From Pseudomonas chlororaphis (lineage in GTDB: Bacteria > Pseudomonadota > Gammaproteobacteria > Pseudomonadales > Pseudomonadaceae), in contig NZ_MOAL01000004.1 in the NCBI RefSeq assembly GCF_003731765.1, forward strand, positions 2,232,001 through 2,296,000: 64,000 bases of DNA, read 5' to 3'. How positions within the stretch are numbered: the first letter of the stretch is position 1; each line of letters opens with the position of its first letter. This document shows positions 2,966-20,225 of the stretch, piece by piece. Below the pieces are notes generated by a model. It did not search any database, was not told where the DNA came from, and saw only the letters and a program-made list of their open reading frames with translations. The translations under genes were made by a program, and so were the position numbers.

Positions 2966-4551
2966 CGCGCCGCTACCAGCGTCTGGTGGCCGGCCTGCGC
3001 CGCCAGGCCGCGCGCCTGGCGGTCGAAGAGCACGGCGGCGTGGCACCGTTCATGGTCCTGGCCATTGGCGGCGCCCTGCTCGCCACCGCCTACGCCATCG
3101 ACCTGGCGCGCATGACCAACAATGCTGCGCAAATCAAGCGTGCCACCGACGCCGCCGCCATCGCCATCGGCAACCAATTGCTGATGGACAGCCGCAGCAC
3201 CCCCGAGCAACTGAGCAAAATGGCCTGGGGTTATGTGCAGAACAACCTGGGCATGGACAGCGACCTGTTTGAACAGATCACCTACGACTCGATGAAAGTC
3301 ACCCGCGGTGGTGGCGGTGACAGCCCGGTGACTCTGCGCGTGGACATCAACCTCCAGGCCCAAGCCGCGCTGATCGGCGGCGGTGCCGTGCAACAGCAGG
3401 TGCATTCGACCTCTGAAGTGCTGTCACGGCCCACCGAAGTGGCGCTGATCCTGCCCACCACCCTCTCCGAAACCGAACCCGACCTCGCCGCCCTGCGCCG
3501 CCTGGGCAAGTCCCTGGCGGACAACCTGCTGGGGGAAGACGGCGAGCAGGACGAGAGCAACAAAGTCTGGCTGTCACTGATCCCCTACAGCCAGGCGGTG
3601 AATGTCTACGACGCCAAGGACCCGCAGCGGATCAACCGCTGGGCCGCCCCCGGGGCGTTGAACCCGGTGGAACTGCGCAGCCTGTTCCGTACCGGCTACG
3701 CCAGCCTGGCCGACCGGCGCATACCCGATCGCCGGGCCAACCTGCTGTGCATGTACCGCGGCCTGGGCCTGGGTCAGAACTACTACTGGGACCAACCGCC
3801 CGAAGGCCAATTCAAGGTCTACTACCGCCACGACCTGCCAGAGAACGGCAGCCCCGGTGCGCCGGCCATTTCCTGGCGCGGGCCCAATCCGGACTTCGGC
3901 CAGGCCGACGGCGTGGTGGACACCCGCTGGATGGTCGCCGACAAAGGTTGCCCGAATGCCGCCCTGCTGCCCCTGACCCAGGACCGGGAGAAAATCGACC
4001 AGCGCCTGGATCAACTCTCCACCCGCTTCAACACCAACTACGCGATCGCCATGGGCTGGGCCGCCATGTCCCTGTCACCGAACATGCGCGGCCTCAATGG
4101 CTGGGGCGACAGCGAGCGCCCCCTGGATTTCAACCAGGACGGCAACGCCGACAACGTCAAGATCATTGTCATGCTGGCCAACACCACCGGTAACTGGTTC
4201 GACACCGACGCGTACAACAGCGAAGTCGGCCAGGCGATCGACGGCCAGAGCAACACCACCTCGGCCAACGATGTGGCCGGTCGGCGCTTCCAGCGGCTGT
4301 GCGACAGCTTTCGCGCGCGCAACCTGAAGTTCTATTTCATCGGCGTGCGCCCCGGCGACCCCAAGGATTTCGGCCGCCAGCTGTTCGACAAGGTCGCCAG
4401 CCCCGGCCTGCGCATCTGCACCAACGGTGAACAGAACATGGTCTTCGCCGACGCCGAGAACTTCGCCGACGGCGAACGCGAGATCAACGGTTTGCTCCAG
4501 GACATCGCCGACAAGATCAAACACGAGCGCTACGCCCGCCTGATCGAGTGA
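2962..4551 (+). CDS. tadG: TadG-like pilus assembly protein
   Basis: A 529-residue protein. After a basic start comes EEHGGVAPFMVLAIGGALLATAYAIDLARM, the TadE/TadG-type N-terminal membrane segment (about residues 22-50), followed by the NAAQIKRATDAAAIA stretch usual in TadG. A large periplasmic region follows, with a von Willebrand-like C-terminal part (EVALILPTTLSETEPD near 155-175, VKIIVMLANTTGNW near 395-410). TadG is an envelope protein of the Flp system. It overlaps the small protein upstream by 4 nt and is followed after 53 nt by the giant exoprotein gene, with no terminator between, so both are probably on one transcript. Confidence 0.85.
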   Translation: MTRRYQRLVAGLRRQAARLAVEEHGGVAPFMVLAIGGALLATAYAIDLARMTNNAAQIKRATDAAAIAIGNQLLMDSRSTPEQLSKMAWGYVQNNLGMDSDLFEQITYDSMKVTRGGGGDSPVTLRVDINLQAQAALIGGGAVQQQVHSTSEVLSRPTEVALILPTTLSETEPDLAALRRLGKSLADNLLGEDGEQDESNKVWLSLIPYSQAVNVYDAKDPQRINRWAAPGALNPVELRSLFRTGYASLADRRIPDRRANLLCMYRGLGLGQNYYWDQPPEGQFKVYYRHDLPENGSPGAPAISWRGPNPDFGQADGVVDTRWMVADKGCPNAALLPLTQDREKIDQRLDQLSTRFNTNYAIAMGWAAMSLSPNMRGLNGWGDSERPLDFNQDGNADNVKIIVMLANTTGNWFDTDAYNSEVGQAIDGQSNTTSANDVAGRRFQRLCDSFRARNLKFYFIGVRPGDPKDFGRQLFDKVASPGLRICTNGEQNMVFADAENFADGEREINGLLQDIADKIKHERYARLIE

Positions 4552-4604
4552 TTGCCCCGCTTCTTCCATTCGCCTGCCCGCCCCCTTCAACAAAGGATTC
4601 CGCC

Positions 4605-7600
4605 ATGACTGCGCCCACTCGCTCCAACCGCCCGCGTCTTTCGACCCTGGCCCTGGCCCTCGAACCACGGATGATGTTCGATGCGGCGGCAGTCGCCACC
4701 GGCGCCGAAACCGCGGCCCAGGCCGAAGCCCAGCAAACCGGCAACCAGGCGCCGACCCTCAGCGCCGACGCCAGCCACGCCACCTATACGGTGGGCCAGT
4801 CGGACGCCACCGGGGTCGAGGTGTTCAAGAACACCAGCGCCTCGACCGTGGACAGCGGCCAGGCCTTCGACACCCTGGTGATCACCGTGGACAGCAGCAA
4901 CAGCCAGGAAGCCCTGGTGATTGATGGCAAGACCATCCAGCTGACCAGCGAACTCAGTGGCGTCACCGAAAATAACGCTTACTCCTATCAGGTCAGCACG
5001 TCGGGCGGCCAGACCACGGTGTCGCTCTTCCTCTCCTCGTCCGACGCCAACAGCGCCGCCGACCTCAAGACGCTGGTCGACGGCATCCGCTACAAGGCCC
5101 TGGACACCAGCATCGACAGCGGCGCGCGGACCATCACCCTGAGCAGCCTCAAGGACGACGGCGGCACCGCCGATGGCGGTACAGACACCACCGCGCTCAA
5201 CCTCAGCTCCAGCATCAACCTGGTCAACGACACCAACCGCCCGCCGGTGCTGGTGGACGCCGGGGTGCCCGACCTGGCCCAGGCGCAAAACATCAAGGAC
5301 CTGGGCACCAGCAAGGAAGTGGTGTACTCCGCCGACGGCAAGCACCTGTATGCCGCCGGCGCCAACGGCACCCTGGTGACCTTCGCTGTGGACGAACACG
5401 GCAACCTGACCACCGAACAGGTGCTGAAGAACGTCACCGACCTGGGCACCCTCAACGACCTGACCCTGAGCGCCGATGGCAAGTCGCTGTACGCCTTGTC
5501 CGGCAGCAAGATCATCACCCTCAATGTCGCCGGCGACGGCCAGCTCAGCTACGCCGCCAGCACCTCCGCCGGTGGCAACCTGATCAGCCTGGCACTGTCC
5601 GAGGACGGCAAGCAGCTCTATGTCACCAACCAGTACGACGGCCTGGCGGTGTTCGAACGCAACACCGAGACCGGGGCCCTGGGCACCACCGCCGTGCAGC
5701 GTCTCAATGAAGGCGCCCTGGGCGGGGGCCGTTCGCGCACCGTGCTCAGTGTGGGCGACTACGTGTACGTGGTCTCCAACACCAGCGTGGTGACCCTGGA
5801 ACGGGGCAGCGACGGCAAGCTCACCAAGCTCCTCGACGGCACCCTCAGCGTGGGCATCAGCAGCAGTACGCCGACCACCCTGACCGCCTCCGCCGACGGC
5901 CGTTTCGTCTACCTCAGTGACGCCAGCAACGGCGTGATCAAGGTGCTCGAATTGCGTGACAGCAGCGACGGCAAGGAACTGGTGCTGGTGGACAGCACCC
6001 AGCTCGGCGGGGTCAGCAGCCTGGCCCTGTCCAGCGACGGCCAGCGCTTGTTCGCCACGTCCAGCAGCGGCGGCACCCTGAGCGTGTACCGGGTCGGCAG
6101 CGACGGCCGCCTGACCCTCACCGGCACCCTCAGCGACGTGCCCGGCGCCGTCACCGTCAGTACCTCCCCCGATGGCCAGTCGGTGGTGGTAGGCGGCACC
6201 GGCCTGAACCGCTTCAGCGACGTGCAGACCTACATCAGCGGCAGTGACAGCACAGTCGCCAGCGGCGTGACCCTGAGCGACGTCAACCTCGACAAACTCA
6301 ACGCCGGTCAGGGCAACTACCAGGGCGCCAGCGTCACCCTCGAACGTACCGGTGGTGCCTCCAGCGACGACAGTTTCGGTTTCAAGACCGGCAGCGGCCT
6401 GAGCCTGTCCGGCGACAAGGTGCTGAAGAACGGCGTGGAAATCGGCACCTTCAACCAGAGTGGCGGCACCCTCACGATCACCTTCAGCACCCAGCTCACC
6501 AGCGCCGAGGCCAATGCCGTGCTGCACCAGGTGACCTACCACAACAGCACCTCGCCCGACGGCACCCTGATCAGCCTGAACCTGGTGGCCAACGACGGCG
6601 AACTGAACAGCCGGGCCCTGGTCCTGACCTTGCTGCTGAGCAATAACAGTGCGCCGACCCTGACCACCACCGTGGTCAGCCACACCCCCTACGACACCGC
6701 CACGGTGCAGACCCCACTGTTCAGCGACACCGCGGTGAACACCGGTGAAGTCGGGCAAACCATCCTGTCCCTGGACCTCAAGGTCAGCGGCCTGGTAAAC
6801 CCGGCCAACGAATTCCTGATGGTCGACGGCACCCGCATCGACCTGTCCCAGTCCGGCAGCGGCACCACGGCCAGCGGCTACAGCTACAGCTATGTGCGCA
6901 ACGGCAGCACTGCCACCCTGCACATCAGTCGCGACAGCGGCATCAGCAGCACCGCCGTGCAGAACCTGGTCAACGGCATCGCCTACGTCAATGACAGCGC
7001 CAGCGCGGTCAGCGGCAGCCGCACCTTCACCCTGGCCACCCTGCGCGACGACGGCGGCACCGCCAACGGCAGCAGCGACAGCCGCGACCTGAACATCAGC
7101 ACCACCCTGGCCATCGCCGTGAACAACGCGCCCCAGGCCCAGGTCGACGTCAGCGTGGACACCAACCTCTACTACTTCAACGGCAGCCTCAGCGGCTACA
7201 CCGACTACGTCAGCGGCGTGACCCTGTCCAGCGACGGCAAGACCCTGCTGGTGATCGGCAACAGCGGCAGCAACACCAGCGGCATCAGCTACCTGCGGGT
7301 CTACAGCCGCGACCCGCTGACCGGCGCCCTGAGCCTGACCCAGAGTTTTACCCAAGGCAGCGTGGACAACCCGGACACGGTGGCCATCGAAGTCAACGGC
7401 CTGAACACCATCAGCACCGTCACGGTTTCCGCGGACGGCAGCCTGGTCTACGTGGCCGGCTACAGCACCGCCAACTCGGTGACCAGCGCCAGCCTGCTGC
7501 TGTTCAAGCGTGACGCCAACGGCACCCTGACCTTCGATTCGGTGGCGGCCAGCGGCACCAGCGGCCTCAATGCACCGATCAGCGAAATCGTGCTGTCCGC

Positions 7601-14087: not shown

Positions 14088-14121
14088 CCCGGGTTCATTA
14101 AGGATTCTTAATGAACCCGGG
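14088..14121. promoter_or_regulatory. Perfect 15-bp-arm palindrome containing TTAAG-N4-CTTAA, copy 3
   Basis: Arms CCCGGGTTCATTAAG (14088-14102) and CTTAATGAACCCGGG (14107-14121) are exact reverse complements around the 4-nt loop GATT. The inner TTAAG-N4-CTTAA (14098-14111) matches the other operator copies and is 25 nt upstream of the -35-like TTGCCC. The hairpin lies 18 nt after the exoprotein stop, so it could also act as a transcription stop, although no T-tract follows. Confidence 0.65.
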
Positions 14122-14122
14122 A

Positions 14123-14151
14123 TTGCCCGATAGTGAGAATTATTCTTATCT
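14123..14151 (+). promoter_or_regulatory. Promoter of the export operon with Fur box
   Basis: TTGCCC (14123-14128), a 17-nt spacer and TTATCT (14146-14151). The dyad TGAGAAT-T-ATTCTTA (14134-14148) is a 7-1-7 Fur box with 6 of 7 symmetric pairs and overlaps the -10 element. The inferred transcription start (about 14158) excludes the ATG at 14111 as the start of the next gene. Confidence 0.65.
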
Positions 14152-14218
14152 TTGCCGCCAATCGGCCCAGCCACGCCAAGAGGGCGGCCCGCTCCAGCCT
14201 TTTTTCAGGGGAATACAT

Positions 14219-15907
14219 GTGATCAAGCAGCAACCGCCCGCCACCGCCAAACGCCTGCCGCTGCGCCTTGCCGTCGGCCTGGCCGCGTTCACCTTGAGTG
14301 CCTGCGCGGTGAAGCCGGAACCGGTGAGCCTGGACCAGCAGATGGCCCAGGCCAGCGCCGACCGGGCCTCGATGTTCGACGGCCAGGAGCCGGTGACCCG
14401 CCCCATCAGCCTCGAAGAAGCCATGGCCCGGGCGGTCAAGTACAACCTGCAACAACGCCTGGGGCTGATGGAACGCGCCCTGGAAGATAACCTGTTGGAC
14501 GTACAGAACCTCGACATGCTGCCCAAGCTCGCCGCCCGCGCCGGCTGGCGTGGCCGGGACAACATCTCGGCTTCCTCCAGCCAGTCGATCCGCACCGGCA
14601 ACCAGTCCCTGGAGCCGTCCACCAGCCAGGACCGCGGCACCCGCAGCGCCGACCTGCAAATGTCCTGGAACGTGCTGGACTTCGGTCTCGGCTACTTCAG
14701 TGCCAAGGCCCAGGCCAACAAGAGCCTGGCCGCCGAGGAACGTCGGCGGCGGATCGTCGCCGACATCATTGCCCAGGTACGCAGCGCCTACTGGGAAGCC
14801 GCCACCGCCGAACGCCTGAAGCCCGACGTGCAACGGGCCCTGGTGGAAGCCCGTGGGGCCCTGGCCCATGCCCGGCAGACCGAGCAGCAACGCCTGCTGG
14901 CGCCGCTGGACGCCCTGCGTTTCCAGAAAGGCCTGCTGGAAATGGTCCGCCAACTGGAGGCCGTGGACGGTGAACTGGCCAATGCCAAATCCCGCCTGGC
15001 GGCGCTGATGAACCTGCCACCGGCCAGCGACTATCGCCTGGTCCTGCCCAGCGAGCAGCAGTTGAACCAGCCGACCCTGGCTTACCGCCTGGATGACCTG
15101 GAAGCCATGGCCATGGTCAAGCGCCCGGAAGTGCGTGAAGAGAGTTACCTGGCGCGCAACGCCGTGCTGGAAACCCGCTCCGCCCTGCTGCGCCTGTTGC
15201 CCGGGGCTTCGCTGTTCGTCGGCACCAATTACGACAGCAACAGCTACACGGTGAACAACCACTGGGCCGACGCCGGGGTCCAGGTCAGCTGGAACCTGAT
15301 GAGCGTGCTCTCCTACCCGGCCATCGTCCGCGCTGGCGAAGCCCGCTCGGCCGTCGCCGATGTGCGCCGCCAGGCCCTGCGTATGGCGGTGCTGACCCAG
15401 GTCAACGTGGCCTGGCAGCAGTACCAACAAGCCAGCGTGCTGTTCGACCGTTCCAATGAGTTGCAACGCATCCAGCGCGGCATCCTGACCCAGACCGAAA
15501 GCGCGGTGCAAAGCGACGCCCAAACCCTGGTGGAACGGGTGCGTACGCGCACCGAGACCGTGCTCGCCACACGCATTCGCGACCGCAGCTATGCCCAACT
15601 GCAAAGCGCCTACGGCGCGGTGTACCAGGCCGCCGGCCTCGACCCGCTGCCCGAGCGCCTGAGTGGCGACAGCATCGCCAGCCTGAGCCAGGCGATCCTC
15701 GACAACAGCCTGGCCCTGGCCCAAGGCAAGGCACCGGTGCCGTCCCTGCCCGCCAGCCAGCCGAGCCCTGTCGCCAGTGTGTTCCCCGTGGCCCAGCCGT
15801 CGCGTCCGGTGAGCGCCCCGGTGCAACAGGTGGACCTGTGGAACAGCCTCGGTTCCCTGCAAGGCGCGCCTCTGCTGCCGGTGGCTGCACCGACCCGCCA
15901 ACGTTGA
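14219..15907 (+). CDS. TolC-family outer-membrane lipoprotein
   Basis: A 562-residue protein starting at GTG 14219, seven bases after an AGGGG ribosome-binding site. The signal ends in TLSAC with the lipid Cys at 29. The body has the long coiled-coil helices of TolC/OEP proteins, with the two-fold repeat visible: ISLEEAMARAVKYNLQQRLG near 62-81 and a second half starting with the 'SYTVNNHWADAGVQVSWNLM' stretch near 341-360. A Gln/Pro-rich tail of about 60 residues follows. It would form the outer-membrane channel for the adaptor proteins encoded next. It is the first gene of the operon driven by the 14123 promoter. It could instead serve a drug-efflux pump, but no RND or ABC pump gene is nearby. 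Confidence 0.85.
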   Translation: MIKQQPPATAKRLPLRLAVGLAAFTLSACAVKPEPVSLDQQMAQASADRASMFDGQEPVTRPISLEEAMARAVKYNLQQRLGLMERALEDNLLDVQNLDMLPKLAARAGWRGRDNISASSSQSIRTGNQSLEPSTSQDRGTRSADLQMSWNVLDFGLGYFSAKAQANKSLAAEERRRRIVADIIAQVRSAYWEAATAERLKPDVQRALVEARGALAHARQTEQQRLLAPLDALRFQKGLLEMVRQLEAVDGELANAKSRLAALMNLPPASDYRLVLPSEQQLNQPTLAYRLDDLEAMAMVKRPEVREESYLARNAVLETRSALLRLLPGASLFVGTNYDSNSYTVNNHWADAGVQVSWNLMSVLSYPAIVRAGEARSAVADVRRQALRMAVLTQVNVAWQQYQQASVLFDRSNELQRIQRGILTQTESAVQSDAQTLVERVRTRTETVLATRIRDRSYAQLQSAYGAVYQAAGLDPLPERLSGDSIASLSQAILDNSLALAQGKAPVPSLPASQPSPVASVFPVAQPSRPVSAPVQQVDLWNSLGSLQGAPLLPVAAPTRQR

Positions 15908-15970: not shown

Positions 15971-16774
15971 ATGCCTAGCCTTCGCCTTATCGCCCCGCCC
16001 CTGTGCCTGTTGCTGGCCGTCGCCAGCGCCACGGCCCGGGCCGAAGAACCCGCGCCCCTGGCGCCACCGCCCAGCCTGGGCAGCAGCCTGGTGGACAGCC
16101 AGCCGCAACTGCGGGTGCAGCTCAGCGCCAGCCGGCGCACGGTGCTGTCCAGCGAACTGTCGGGGAAGATTCTCGAACTTAACGTCAAGGAAGGCGCGAG
16201 CTTCACCAAGGGGCAGCGCCTGGTGACCTTCGACTGCGCCGTGCACCGCGCGCAATTGACCCACTCGGTGGCCGCCGAAGCCGCCGCGAGCAAAAAGCTC
16301 GAGGTCGCCAAGCGCCTCGACAAGCTGCAATCGATCAGCGTTTCCGACCTGTCCCAGGCCCAGGCCGAAGCCAACATGGCCCGGGCCCAAAGTGGCGTGG
16401 GCCAGGTCATGGTGCAGCGCTGCGCGATCAACGCACCGTTTTCCGGGCGGGTGGCCGAACGCAAGGCGCAGCCCGGGGAATACGTGGCCGAAGGCAAGGA
16501 GCTGCTGGCGATCTATGACGACAGCGCCTTTGAAGTGGAACTGATCGTGCCCTCGCGCTGGATGGCCTGGCTCAAGCCCGGCCACCCGTTCAAGGTGCGC
16601 CTGGAAGAAACCGCCGGTGAATACCCCGCCGAAGTCACCCGCCTGGGCTCGGTGATCGACCCCATCAGCCAGTCGATCAAGGTCTTCGCGCGCATCACCA
16701 ACAACAACCCGCACCTGCTGCCGGGCATGAGCGGCAACGCCCTGTTGACGCCACCCGACGCCCCCCAATCATGA
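15971..16774 (+). CDS. Periplasmic adaptor (membrane fusion) protein
   Basis: A 267-residue protein with a Sec signal peptide cleaved after ARA (about residue 24). It has the split biotinyl-lipoyl domain typical of RND-type adaptors: ELSGKILELNVKEGASFTKGQRLVTFD (about 58-85) and, after a short helical hairpin, INAPFSGRVAERKAQPGEYVAEGKELLAIYD (about 155-185), then a beta-barrel and a C-terminal part ending in LLPGMSGNALL. It is short for the family. The ATGA overlap with the next gene (16771-16774) shows tight coupling. It probably bridges the TolC-like channel and the two inner-membrane proteins that follow. Confidence 0.8.
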   Translation: MPSLRLIAPPLCLLLAVASATARAEEPAPLAPPPSLGSSLVDSQPQLRVQLSASRRTVLSSELSGKILELNVKEGASFTKGQRLVTFDCAVHRAQLTHSVAAEAAASKKLEVAKRLDKLQSISVSDLSQAQAEANMARAQSGVGQVMVQRCAINAPFSGRVAERKAQPGEYVAEGKELLAIYDDSAFEVELIVPSRWMAWLKPGHPFKVRLEETAGEYPAEVTRLGSVIDPISQSIKVFARITNNNPHLLPGMSGNALLTPPDAPQS

Positions 16775-18111
16775 GTGCCGCCCAGCCCCTGCCGACCAAC
16801 AATGTGCTGGCCGAGCTGCTGCAACTGGAGCAGCGCCTGCGGGCCGCCGCCAGCTTCGAAGAGCTGGGTTTTATCCTGGTCAACGACAGCCGCCTGCTGC
16901 TGGACTATCGCCAGGCGCTGCTCTGGCGCTGCGACGAACAGCGCCTGCAAGCCCTGTCCGGCCTGGCCCTGGTGGAGCGCGATGCGCCCTTCAGCACCTG
17001 GCTCAACGGCCTGTGCCGGCAATGGCAGGCGGCGGATAACGCGCAGTCGATCCACGCCATCGACAGCCGCGACCTGGCCGCCGCCGACGCGCCGCTGTGG
17101 GCCGAACACTTCCCCCGGCTGCTGCTGTGGCTACCGATCAAGGGCCGCGACGGCCAATTGCTGGGGGCCTTGCTGCTGGCCCGGGAGCAACCCCTGAGCA
17201 ATGCCCAGCAGCAGTTGCTGACGTTGTGGCTGGACGCTGCCGGGCATGCCTGGCAGGCCTTGCTCAAACCGGCCAGCGGCGGCCTGGGGCGACCGACCCT
17301 GAACCGGCGCAACCTGCTGATCGGCCTGGGCCTGCTCCTGGCCCTGCTGCTGGTGCCGATTCGCCAGTCGGTGCTGGCCCCGGCGGAGATCGTCGCCCTG
17401 CACCCCAGCGTGCTGCGCGCACCCATGCAAGGGGTGGTGGAGCGCATCCTGGTGCAGCCCAACCAGGCGGTCAGCGCCGGCCAGGCCCTGGTGCAACTGG
17501 ACGCCCGCGAACTGCAAAGCCGCCTGGAGGCCTCGCGCCAGGCGTTGTCCATCAGCGACGCCGAGTTCCGCCAGGCCCAGCAGCAAGCCCTCAGCGACGA
17601 GCGCAGCAAGGCCAGCCTGGCGGTGTTGCAAGGCCGTCGCGAACAGGCCCTGAGCGACGTCGCCTACCTGCAGGAAAACCTCAAACGCACCCTGATCACG
17701 GCACCCCGCGCCGGGGTCGCGGTGTTCGACGACCCCAGCGATTGGATCGGCCGCCCGGTGTCCCTGGGCGAGCGCATCATGTCGGTGGCCGAACCGCAGC
17801 AGGCGCAGCTGGAAATCCAATTGCCGGTGGGCGACGCCATCGAGCTGGCGCCCGGTGCCCAGACTTTGCTGTTTCTCAACACCGACCCTTCGGCGCCGCT
17901 GCCGGCGACCTTGCAGCGCCTGTCCTATCGCGCCAGCCCCAGCGCCGACGGCAGCATGGCCTATCGCCTCAAGGCCGAGTTCGATGAAACCGACCCACGG
18001 ATCCGCGTCGGCCTCAAGGGCACGGCCAAGGTCTATGCCGGTCGCGCCAGCCTGATCTACTACCTGCTGCGCCGGCCCCTGGCCACCGCGCGCATCTGGC
18101 TGGCCCTGTGA
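16771..18111 (+). CDS. GAF-like domain fused to a membrane-anchored HlyD-type adaptor
   Basis: A 446-residue protein. Residues about 10-165 have a GAF-like pattern (FEELGFILVNDSRLLLDYRQALLW; LLLWLPIKGRDGQLLGALLLAREQ; QQLLTLWLDAAGHAWQAL) and precede the membrane segment at about 181-199, so they should lie in the cytoplasm. The C-terminal half is HlyD-like: lipoyl half-motif APMQGVVERILVQPNQAVSAGQALVQLD, a coiled-coil hairpin, and ITAPRAGVAVFDDPSDWIGRPVSLGERI. A sensory cytosolic domain on an adaptor is unusual; the ligand is unknown. It overlaps its neighbours by 4 nt on both sides, so a fixed stoichiometry with them is likely. It could couple export to a cytoplasmic signal or recognise the substrate. 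Confidence 0.75.
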   Translation: MSAAQPLPTNNVLAELLQLEQRLRAAASFEELGFILVNDSRLLLDYRQALLWRCDEQRLQALSGLALVERDAPFSTWLNGLCRQWQAADNAQSIHAIDSRDLAAADAPLWAEHFPRLLLWLPIKGRDGQLLGALLLAREQPLSNAQQQLLTLWLDAAGHAWQALLKPASGGLGRPTLNRRNLLIGLGLLLALLLVPIRQSVLAPAEIVALHPSVLRAPMQGVVERILVQPNQAVSAGQALVQLDARELQSRLEASRQALSISDAEFRQAQQQALSDERSKASLAVLQGRREQALSDVAYLQENLKRTLITAPRAGVAVFDDPSDWIGRPVSLGERIMSVAEPQQAQLEIQLPVGDAIELAPGAQTLLFLNTDPSAPLPATLQRLSYRASPSADGSMAYRLKAEFDETDPRIRVGLKGTAKVYAGRASLIYYLLRRPLATARIWLAL

Positions 18112-20225
18112 GCGCAGCGCCAAGCCTGCCGGCCCTGCGCCAGGAACTGCTGCTGCACGACGGCCCGCAACACCGCGACGGCTCGCCCTCCTGGACCCTG
18201 GAAGACCCGGCCCGGGGGCAGTTCTTTCGCCTGGGCTGGGTCGAGGTGGAGATCCTCGGCCGCTGGGGCCTGGGCCAGCCCGAGGCGATTGCCCAGGCCA
18301 TCAGCCAGTCCACCACCCTGGAGGTGGAGAAGGACGACGTCGAGCAGTTCAAGGGCTTCCTGCACAGCAACCAGCTGTTGCAGTGCCAGGGCCAGGAGGA
18401 CAACGCCCGACTGGCGCGGATCGCCGCCGGGCAGAAAACCGGCTGGGGCCGCTGGCTACTGAAAAACTACCTGTTCGTGCGCATCCCACTGCTGCGCCCA
18501 GACCGTTTTCTGGAGCGCAGCCTGCCCTGGGTCGAGCCCTTCTACAGCCGGCGCTTTCTCCAGCTGACCCTGGGCGCCGGCCTGCTGGGCCTGTTCCTGG
18601 TGGCCCGGCAATGGGACAGTTTCCTGCACACTTTCCTGCACTTCTTCACCCTGGAAGGCGCGGCCCTGGCCGGCCTGACCCTGTTTCTGACCAAGGTCCT
18701 GCACGAGCTGGGGCACGCCTACACCTGCAAGCGTTTTGGCGGACGGGTGGCGACCATGGGCGTGGCCCTGCTGGTGATGTGGCCCGTGCTCTACACCGAC
18801 ACTTCGGGGGCCTGGCGCCTGCGCCGACAGCAGCAGCGCCTGGCCATCGGCGCCGCCGGCATGCTCACCGAACTGGCACTGGCGGCCTGGGCCACCCTGC
18901 TCTGGAGTTTCTTGCCGGACGGCATGTTGCGCAGCGCAGCGTTCATGCTCGCCACCACCACCTGGATCCTCACCCTGGCGATCAACCTCAGCCCCTTCAT
19001 GCGCTTTGACGGCTACTTCCTGCTGTCGGACCTGCTGGAGGTGCCGAACCTGCAACAACGGGCCTTCCGCCTGACCCGCTGGCGCGTGCGCGAATGGCTG
19101 TTCGCCTTTGACGAGCCGCGCCCGGAGCGCTTCGAACCCTGGCTGGAACGGACATTGGTGGCGTACTCCATCGGCACCTGGATCTACCGCTTCTTCCTGT
19201 TCCTGGGGATCGCCCTGCTGGTCTACCACTTCGCCTTCAAGCTGCTGGGCATCGCCCTGTTCGTGGTGGAAATCCTCTACTTCCTGCTGATGCCCATCGT
19301 CAACGAACTGCGCGAGTGGTACGCCCGGCGCAAGGACTACCGAATGAATCGCCATAGCCTGAGCACCCTGCTCGTCGTCGCCGGCCTGCTGTTGCTGGCG
19401 TGCATTCCCTGGAGCGGCAGCGTGCATGCCCCGGCGTTGCTGCGGGCCGAACAGCAGGCCGTGCTGTATGTGCCGGTGGCGGCGCGCCTGGAGCGCATCG
19501 AGGTGACGCCAGGGCAATCGGTCAAGGCCGGCCAGGCGTTGTTCCGCCTCGACGCCCCGGACCTGCGCCAGGAACTGCAAAGCCTCGACCGGCGGATCCT
19601 GACCCTGCAATGGCAGAACAGCTTCCAGGTGCTCAACCGGGAAACCGCCGCCAACCTGCTGGTGGTGCGCCAGGAACTGGCCGCCGCCCAGGAACGCCAG
19701 CGCCTGTTGCGCCAGCAGATGCAGCAACTCACGGTGTACGCGGCCTTCGACGGGGTGCTGGCGGACCTGGCCGAACCCCTGGAGCCCGGCGAATGGCTGG
19801 CCGCCGGTGAATGGCTGGGCACCTTGGTCGGCACGCAAGGAGCGCGGGTCGAAGCCTTTGTCGAAGAGCAGGACCTGGCGCGTCTAGAGCCCGGCAGCCG
19901 CGCGCGCTTCTACCCGGAAAGCCTGTCCCGCGCGCCCGTCGACCTGCACCTGGAAAGCCTCGGGCAAACCGCCGTGCGACGCCTGACCTCGACCCCGGAG
20001 CTGGCGTCGGTGTACCAGGGGGCGATTGCCGCGACCCTGGATCACGAACGGGTGCCGCAACCGGAGAAAGCCCTGTACCGTGCTCTGCTACGCCCGGACC
20101 CGAACACCCCGAGCCCGACCCTCAGCCTGCGCGGCACCGTGCTGCTGGAGGGGCAGGCACAAAGCCTGGCGATGCGCGTCTGGCGCAGTGTGCTGGCCAT
20201 CCTGATTCGCGAATCGGCGTTTTGA
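18108..20225 (+). CDS. M50-type membrane metalloprotease fused to a HlyD-like adaptor
   Basis: A 705-residue protein starting at GTG 18108, inside the ATGA-like overlap. Residues about 25-95 form a small domain resembling PqqD/RRE folds (FRLGWVEVEIL; DDVEQFKGFLHSNQLL). About 150-435 is polytopic, with the M50 zinc motif HELGH at 199-203 and the second motif NLSPFMRFDGY (N294, D301), both intact. Another membrane helix near 418-434 leads into a periplasmic HlyD-like region: lipoyl half VTPGQSVKAGQALFRLDAPD, a coiled coil, then YAAFDGVLADLAEPLEPGEWL. Relatives are called 'peptide zinc metalloprotease' or HlyD/M50 proteins. Context suggests it is the inner-membrane core of the exporter. Whether it cleaves the LEPR leader, or is only a channel, cannot be told. 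Confidence 0.8.
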   Translation: MSAAPSLPALRQELLLHDGPQHRDGSPSWTLEDPARGQFFRLGWVEVEILGRWGLGQPEAIAQAISQSTTLEVEKDDVEQFKGFLHSNQLLQCQGQEDNARLARIAAGQKTGWGRWLLKNYLFVRIPLLRPDRFLERSLPWVEPFYSRRFLQLTLGAGLLGLFLVARQWDSFLHTFLHFFTLEGAALAGLTLFLTKVLHELGHAYTCKRFGGRVATMGVALLVMWPVLYTDTSGAWRLRRQQQRLAIGAAGMLTELALAAWATLLWSFLPDGMLRSAAFMLATTTWILTLAINLSPFMRFDGYFLLSDLLEVPNLQQRAFRLTRWRVREWLFAFDEPRPERFEPWLERTLVAYSIGTWIYRFFLFLGIALLVYHFAFKLLGIALFVVEILYFLLMPIVNELREWYARRKDYRMNRHSLSTLLVVAGLLLLACIPWSGSVHAPALLRAEQQAVLYVPVAARLERIEVTPGQSVKAGQALFRLDAPDLRQELQSLDRRILTLQWQNSFQVLNRETAANLLVVRQELAAAQERQRLLRQQMQQLTVYAAFDGVLADLAEPLEPGEWLAAGEWLGTLVGTQGARVEAFVEEQDLARLEPGSRARFYPESLSRAPVDLHLESLGQTAVRRLTSTPELASVYQGAIAATLDHERVPQPEKALYRALLRPDPNTPSPTLSLRGTVLLEGQAQSLAMRVWRSVLAILIRESAF

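Follow-up and report, generated by a model that had tools for sequence, protein, structure and literature searches.

A PqqD-like recognition domain predicted at the N-terminus of an M50-HlyD protein encoded beside a LEPR-leader giant exoprotein

Introduction

The RiPP recognition elements (RREs) of ribosomally synthesized and post-translationally modified peptide (RiPP) pathways are defined by a βββ-ααα order of secondary structure (PMC12710340), and, in the available portions of two surveys, those of known function bind leader peptides (PMC7470986, PMC12710340). Here we describe a candidate RRE in an M50-HlyD protein of Pseudomonas chlororaphis, encoded within a 64,000-nucleotide stretch (contig NZ_MOAL01000004.1, positions 2,232,001 to 2,296,000) that we refer to as the window and whose own numbering is used throughout. 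The candidate domain resembles RREs (PqqD, TbiB1 and TfuB1, and those of RiPP enzymes) in its βββ-ααα winged fold, its length of about 90 residues and its similarity to a PqqD profile. It differs from them in being fused to a site-2 protease and a periplasmic adaptor, and its presumed partner is a giant exoprotein with a LEPR-type leader rather than a short RiPP precursor.

Daptides offer the nearest precedent. According to the accessible part of their description (PMC10036551), they came to light through site-2 proteases that have an RRE at the N-terminus, together with a conserved leader motif, and removal of the leader is ascribed to an RRE-dependent intramembrane peptidase. The daptide protease MpaP (NCBIfam NF041824) shares with the window protein an N-terminal RRE, an intramembrane site-2 protease and a substrate with a leader motif. 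The NF041824 model (daptide_HExxH) aligns with residues 57-393 of the window protein at E 5.6e-50, scoring 170.6 bits, below its cut-off of 300; unlike MpaP, the window system has a C-terminal HlyD domain and a TolC partner, and its presumed cargo is thousands of residues long. The M50 proteases of other RiPPs are covered by a review, consulted in its accessible part (PMC10885120).

Kamneva, Poudel and Ward (2015, PMC4452313) described loci in which M50-HlyD proteins are accompanied by HlyD-GAF and a secondary SecA, and considered a role in secretion likely; their text contains neither 'PqqD' nor 'LEPR', and its accessible part names no cargo. The window locus is similar to these in its M50-HlyD and HlyD(-GAF) genes, in the outer membrane channel (OEP) found in some of them and in the proposed secretion role, but it has no secondary SecA_DEAD, the single match in the genome being on another contig. 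In the LEPR-XLL domain (NF012209) an L-E-P-R core stands close to the start of very long proteins, as it does in the window exoprotein; the window leader represents a sister type, in which [FL]-D-[AG]-A takes the position of L-L-S-A-D. Type I secretion (HlyBD-TolC) likewise uses a HlyD-type adaptor and a TolC-type channel; the window cassette differs in having no ATP-binding cassette (ABC) transporter and in a presumed signal that is N-terminal.

We found no paper linking LEPR, PqqD/RRE and M50-HlyD in a search that covered few subscription papers, and the accessible text of the two RRE surveys (PMC12710340, PMC7470986), in which many fusions are treated, contains neither 'HlyD' nor 'peptidase M50' and names no such fusion. 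The one joint mention of 'LEPR', HlyD and PqqD, in PMC8939145, was discarded, 'LEPR' being an author's name there, and a further lead, large Ig-like proteins encoded by the plasmid R27, found no support in the literature search.

Results

The N-terminal domain has a predicted RRE fold

An AlphaFold2 model of residues 6-125 was built from a close set of 81 N-terminal domains, consisting of the window sequence and 80 relatives. It shows three strands and then three helices, with a predicted local distance difference test (pLDDT) of 82.3 and a predicted template modelling score (pTM) of 0.68, and block pLDDT values are 87-93 across its residues 1-80. In model numbering the strands lie at 10-14, 23-28 and 33-37 and the helices at 39-46, 53-63 and 70-82, which is the order of an RRE. 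A full-length model computed from 76 sequences (L037, L039, L048, L098 and L102 being left out; L and G numbers are our labels for loci and genomes) has a pLDDT of 92.1 and a pTM of 0.77. Counted from Met1, it places the strands at 15-18, 29-33 and 38-42 (QFFRL) and the helices at 44-51 (WVEVEILG), 58-68 (PEAIAQAISQS) and 75-87 (KDDVEQFKGFLHS, then NQLL). The initial annotation had recognised a PqqD/RRE-like domain here from a hydrophobic strand, IL..W, an AIA..I helix and DDVEQF..FL..N.LL; all of these fall within the predicted strands and helices, and the fold it named is borne out by AlphaFold2, Foldseek, VIA-align and hhalign, but the extent it gave, residues 25-95, is better drawn at about 6-93.

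Among Protein Data Bank (PDB) structures, the N-terminal domain is matched best by two lasso-peptide RREs, TbiB1 and TfuB1, each solved with bound leader. In a Foldseek search of 350,542 PDB chains, such lasso-peptide RREs take ranks 1-6 (probability 1.00, E 0.0042-0.025), followed by chains of sactipeptide enzymes; no match attains E 0.001, the best being 0.0042. VIA-align gives Z 11.0 for 6jx3 (root-mean-square deviation 2.5, 82 residues aligned), 10.2 for 5v1u (2.6, 80) and 10.2 for 5v1v (2.4, 81), and lower values for other RiPP proteins: 7.0 for the sactipeptide enzyme 5wgg, 6.9 for the heterocyclase 4v1v, 4.7 for McbBCD, 4.4 for TglHI and 3.0 for SkfB. A Z below 8 may mean a common arrangement alone, and only the lasso RREs pass that threshold.

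Profile comparison points the same way. Aligned by hhalign with 20 PqqD-family sequences, the close set (77 of its sequences kept by the program) gives a probability of 86.8% (E 4.3e-6), a broad set of 28 domains 96.7% (E 4.7e-10) and the 11 most distant domains 97.0% (E 1e-10), E-values being those of single comparisons, while reversed or column-shuffled alignments give 0.1-1.0%. The broad set consists of the window domain and 27 from loci listed when 369 genomes of the same class were searched; these loci are a part of the matches, and L002 and L003 (adaptor-only matches) and L016 and L021 (incomplete) were left out of L001-L032. When the broad profile is searched against PDB sequences, TbiB1 is first (E 0.0041) and TfuB1 third (E 1). 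The Pfam PqqD model scores above its cut-off in distant M50-HlyD relatives, namely in G009, in G052 and in a Pseudosulfitobacter protein (26.8 against 23.4 bits). We conclude that the N-terminal 90 or so residues of the M50-HlyD protein have a predicted PqqD-like RRE fold, well supported by modelling together with profile comparison.

As a single sequence, the window protein gives no PqqD/RRE match against the PDB. Among the single-sequence searches, a weak match to AdoMet synthetase (0.019) was taken as chance. At locus L127 (G004:C27) a 694-residue frame combines a Pfam PqqD match above cut-off with an M50-region match, which would be another PqqD-protease-like architecture; by eye its N-terminus resembles a cyclic-nucleotide-binding domain.

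LEPR-type leaders occur mainly in genomes with an M50-HlyD protein

In the panel of 369 genomes, 57 carry an M50-HlyD protein at E 1e-30 or better. A DNA pattern for the window type of leader, with F-D after the LEPR core, occurs in eight of the 369 (the reversed pattern in one), and the 15 genomes whose M50-HlyD proteins are closest include seven of these eight (p 2.9e-10); the eighth, G123, has an M50-HlyD fragment at a contig end. With a slightly wider pattern, a leader is seen in 61 of the 77 carrier genomes (30/37 and 31/40) that stand behind 79 of the 80 M50-HlyD loci, compared with 1/77 for the reversed control. The LEPR-XLL model (NF012209, LEPR-8K) exceeds its cut-off in 48 of the 369 genomes, 35 of which have an M50-HlyD protein if G123 is counted as a carrier; at E of 5e-4 or less it is found in 28 genomes, of which 26 have the protein (p 6.9e-22). 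These counts are strong evidence that giant proteins with LEPR-type N-terminal leaders are found chiefly in genomes that encode M50-HlyD.

At 14 of the 80 loci a giant frame has LE[PQ]R-x-x-[FY]-D-[AG] among its 200 N-terminal residues. By frame size the motif is present in 14 of 310 frames of at least 700 residues, in none of 4,828 of 100-699 residues and in none of 29,589 of 20-99 residues; 42 plus-strand frames of at least 700 residues run off the fetched stretches, so their starts are unseen in this count. The open frames of leader-bearing proteins extend from about 500 to over 14,000 residues. The window leader, LEPRMMFDAAA, scores 11.6 bits with NF012209, below the cut-off of 17, whereas the LLSAD leaders of L154 and L155 are above it (28.4 and 37.8).

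Leader type follows the clade of the protease. The best M50-HlyD protein is at least 35% identical to that of the window in 11 genomes whose leaders could be read as ending in [FL]-D-[AG]-A (G123 by its fragment), and at most 33% identical in 20 genomes that have LEPR[IL]LLSAD leaders or similar ones. G303 belongs to both groups, having a protease of each clade and a leader of each type, and in G306 an M50-HlyD protein 37% identical to the window's stands with the leader LEKRIVLDGAA. M50-HlyD was not detected in G076 (LEQRVLLSAS) or in G120 (LEPRILLDGT, on a frame of 99 residues). Leaders were read by regular expression, which gave no motif at five of 30 leader loci (L204, L206, L208, L211 and L214).

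The open frames that bear LEPR-XLL leaders at G240:C84:83224, G053:C1:429854 and G107:C1:2506229 are between 12,249 and 14,112 residues long, and G240 has six LEPR-XLL matches, five of them over cut-off on frames of at least 5,806 residues. Strong LEPR-XLL matches at G213:C57:21725 and G076:C348:1100 are in genomes where M50-HlyD is undetected; these may have another leader reader, or the genomes may be incomplete. On a Pseudosulfitobacter plasmid the M50-HlyD protein, annotated 'PqqD family peptide modification chaperone', is followed by SecA, and a 38-kb giant gene upstream has the leader FEPRVLLSAD.

The RRE is predicted to be cytosolic and the adaptor periplasmic

Both site-2 protease (M50) motifs, HExxH and, downstream, N..P....DG, are present in predicted membrane helices, and the Pfam M50 score of 27.6 bits is just over the cut-off of 27.2. 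We take NLSPFMRFDG to be the third-ligand motif of site-2 proteases. MRFDGY is invariant in the 76 sequences because relatives were picked by the pattern MRFDGY[FY][LI], a matter of selection. Searches with the full-length model returned matches for the adaptor part alone, of MacA/MexA type, and the tool warns of such behaviour with long models.

Seven helices of the model were taken, by judgement, as membrane-spanning. Lysines plus arginines (K+R) in the successive stretches from the N-terminus number 4, 0, 4, 0, 8, 0, 4 and 1, so that the side bearing the N-terminus has 4, 4, 8 and 4 and the other side 0, 0, 0 and 1, which favours placing the RRE inside and the HlyD part outside. This charge distribution in the modelled topology suggests that the RRE is in the cytosol and the HlyD domain in the periplasm.

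A probable reading of the leader by the RRE

We consider it probable that the N-terminal RRE takes the LEPR leader and that the site-2 protease, with the HlyD/OEP conduit, exports the giant exoprotein; fold, topology and co-occurrence were computed, and from them we infer binding, cleavage and transport. The cytosolic RRE would capture the leader as an added strand in its β3/α3 cleft and bring it to the site-2 protease active site in the inner membrane. The protease would then clip the leader in or close to the conserved (F)D-[AG]-A stretch, and through docking and cleavage the chain would be committed to the neighbouring HlyD/OEP conduit.

Several observations weigh against this account. At E of 1 or less the window protein has no Pfam PqqD match, and single-sequence Pfam PqqD matches are found in only 1/81 domains of the close set (0.015) and 6/28 of the broad set (best 3.8e-7); likewise a hidden Markov model of the close family searched against PDB sequences finds no RRE, its matches being at E 0.36-1.4 alone. 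The leader pattern is lacking in 16 of the 77 carrier genomes, for which incomplete genomes or variant leaders (such as LESRQLFDGAA on an E. coli plasmid) are possible explanations. M50-HlyD is lacking in 13 of the 48 genomes that exceed the LEPR-8K cut-off, nine with the match on frames of fewer than 500 residues and four (G076, G093, G213 and G300) on longer ones. The agreement between leader type and protease clade may reflect a single evolutionary split, and the stretch richest in K+R (8) also holds 8 acidic residues (D+E). Finally, in 58 leader-RRE pairs, matched by judgement wherever a genome had more than one leader, coevolution is not enriched in the RRE over what is seen elsewhere in the protein: among the top 35, p is 0.24-0.99 for RRE columns, and for cleft columns it is 0.11-1.0. 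Model columns 41, 42, 45 and 46, where β3 meets α1, do recur among the top scores with leader positions 3, 5 and 6, and position 7 with 46 only; we place no weight on these couplings because phylogeny was not removed and pairing is not always sure.

The initial annotation had proposed that the domain could grip the LEPR leader. That part is favoured by genome co-occurrence, by the match of leader type with clade, by the likely cytosolic placement and by the daptide precedent (in the accessible part of PMC10036551), and not favoured by the coevolution analysis; on balance, as far as sequence analysis goes, the domain may well serve the leader. The exoprotein would then be handed to the protease or the channel, as was also proposed.

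The null coevolution result leaves room for another part of the system to read the leader. The RRE fold might be kept merely as a structural or docking module, one that binds, say, another cassette subunit, with the leader read by the protease, by the second HlyD protein or, in a distant clade, by a SecA-like ATPase. In addition to the coevolution analysis not singling out RRE columns, leader position 9 (A/G) has its highest couplings with columns of the membrane and HlyD parts, and the RRE sequences of the M50-HlyD family diverge from PqqD. We regard this explanation as unlikely: the G, P, D, W and L positions of the domain are invariant in all 81 aligned sequences of the close set, leader binding is what the surveyed RREs of known function do, and in the daptide pathway, as reported in the accessible text, ketone formation is abolished when MpaB is stripped of its RRE domain (PMC10036551).

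Two further explanations concern the substrate and the nature of the fold. The RRE-M50-HlyD protein could be a RiPP maturation protease that in reality acts on some short, unannotated peptide, with the giant protein as a bystander, and in keeping with this the best NCBIfam match of the window protein is the daptide protease, and about 60% of RREs are by or within well-characterised RiPP proteins (accessible text of PMC12710340). However, among the 80 loci the LEPR-type motif is absent from frames of 20-699 residues and present in those of 700 or more, a count in which short peptides with other leaders were not searched for; the giant-frame cluster is the most recurrent neighbour of the cassette; and the cassette is accompanied by a TolC/HlyD conduit, all of which make a bystander role very improbable. 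We give still less credence to the domain being an ordinary DNA-binding winged helix-turn-helix with a generic likeness to RREs. The two share a fold, the phage small terminase 6ejq (the best chain outside RiPP proteins, Z 5.0) and MecI (3.8) appear lower in the structural comparison, the MarR protein 22oz is second by sequence when the broad profile is searched against the PDB (E 0.069), and helix-turn-helix false positives are reported for RRE-Finder (accessible text of PMC7470986). The lasso RREs nonetheless stand well above these chains at Z 10-11; the same domain sets compared with a MarR winged-helix alignment give only 0.9-4.5% (PqqD against MarR, 5.7%); the βββ-ααα order is the definition of an RRE; and the domain is fused to a membrane protease.

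If the RRE does read the leader, the LEPR-XLL motif gains a function, M50-HlyD loci a substrate and RREs a job outside RiPPs, the recognition of giant exported proteins. Cargo would be predictable from sequence in Proteobacteria and Nitrospira, including on E. coli IncF plasmids. More tentatively, and with somewhat more doubt than belief, we raise the possibility of an unrecognised type of export in which an RRE-protease-adaptor fusion reads and clips the LEPR leader of giant proteins and a HlyD/TolC conduit takes up the chain with no ABC transporter; leader recognition of the RiPP type would then have moved from antibiotic peptides to the secretion of giant proteins. RREs, RRE-site-2-protease fusions (in daptides), M50-HlyD loci and the LEPR-XLL motif are each on record already; what would be new is their joining into leader-guided export of giant proteins.

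Organization and conservation of the locus

The coordinates of the cassette and of the features of the fusion protein are given in Table 1. Two candidate starts of the exoprotein lie within window positions 4548-4607: the longest open reading frame (ORF) begins at GTG 4548, but a Shine-Dalgarno-like AAAGGA precedes ATG 4605, the likely start and the one from which the LEPR motif is numbered. The GTG start of the M50-HlyD gene overlaps the stop codon of the HlyD gene upstream. Pfam GAF was not found in the second HlyD protein of the window; the 'GAF' label comes from relatives, one distant relative having GAF. The genome has one M50-HlyD protein, with two further matches that span the adaptor part only.

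Table 1. Features of the RRE-M50-HlyD cassette in the window
Feature	Position	Strand	Basis
Giant exoprotein, presumed cargo, 3154 aa	4605..14069	+	ORF; likely start ATG 4605, AAAGGA upstream
LEPRMMFDA leader motif, exoprotein residues 19-27 from ATG 4605	4659..4685	+	Pattern match (contig positions 2236659-2236687) and sequence
TolC-type outer membrane channel (OEP)	14111..15907	+	Pfam OEP 1.9e-24
RND/HlyD-type periplasmic adaptor	15971..16774	+	Pfam/NCBIfam; cassette conserved
Second HlyD-type protein	16771..18111	+	Pfam; cassette comparison
RRE-M50-HlyD fusion protein, 705 aa, GTG start	18108..20225	+	ORF; Pfam HlyD_3 7.1e-14, Peptidase_M50 2.2e-6
Predicted PqqD-like RRE domain, residues 6-93	18123..18386	+	AlphaFold2 βββ-ααα; lasso RREs Z 11.0/10.2/10.2; hhalign to PqqD 86.8%
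HELGH zinc site, residues 199-203	18702..18716	+	Both H and E invariant in 76 sequences
NLSPFMRFDG motif, residues 293-302	18984..19013	+	Partly invariant in 76 sequences
Periplasmic adaptor (HlyD/MacA-like) part, residues 435-705	19410..20222	+	Pfam; MacA/MexA fold, Z up to 16.8

The selection pattern given above was used to collect M50-HlyD loci from named genomes, and the 80 best belong to genera as far apart as Pseudomonas and Pectobacterium on the one hand and Azospirillum and Nitrospira on the other. All four cassette genes are present in 58 of these loci and the second HlyD gene in 78, as counted in fetched stretches of which several stop at contig ends. The giant-frame (exoprotein) cluster recurs beside the cassette more often than any other family (51 of 80 loci), followed by the most frequent ATPase among the neighbours, whose sequence looks ABC-like (10 loci). 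No NTPase family recurs as a conserved member among the neighbours of these loci. As to motors, there is no ABC transporter among the five window genes and none as a conserved neighbour in the 80 loci, and SecA was rejected for the window clade, the one SecA_DEAD match in the genome lying away from the locus and SecA standing beside the cassette in one of the 80 close loci. At the distant-clade loci L153, L156, L157 and L219, SecA-like proteins of 655-684 residues are encoded directly after the M50-HlyD gene.

The arrangement of the cassette varies among relatives. At three Azospirillum loci (L050, L056 and L057) it is split, with the OEP and HlyD genes downstream of M50-HlyD on the opposite strand, followed by a leader-bearing giant gene. 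The same cassette is found on the E. coli IncF plasmid pABWA45_1 (L218, NZ_CP022155.1 124355-145220; L221:183-500), where the M50-HlyD protein is 41% identical to that of the window and the cassette adjoins a 13.4-kb gene whose product begins with the variant leader LESRQLFDGAA. A match is present in 67 plasmid records, of which 18 are from Escherichia and 8 from Citrobacter.

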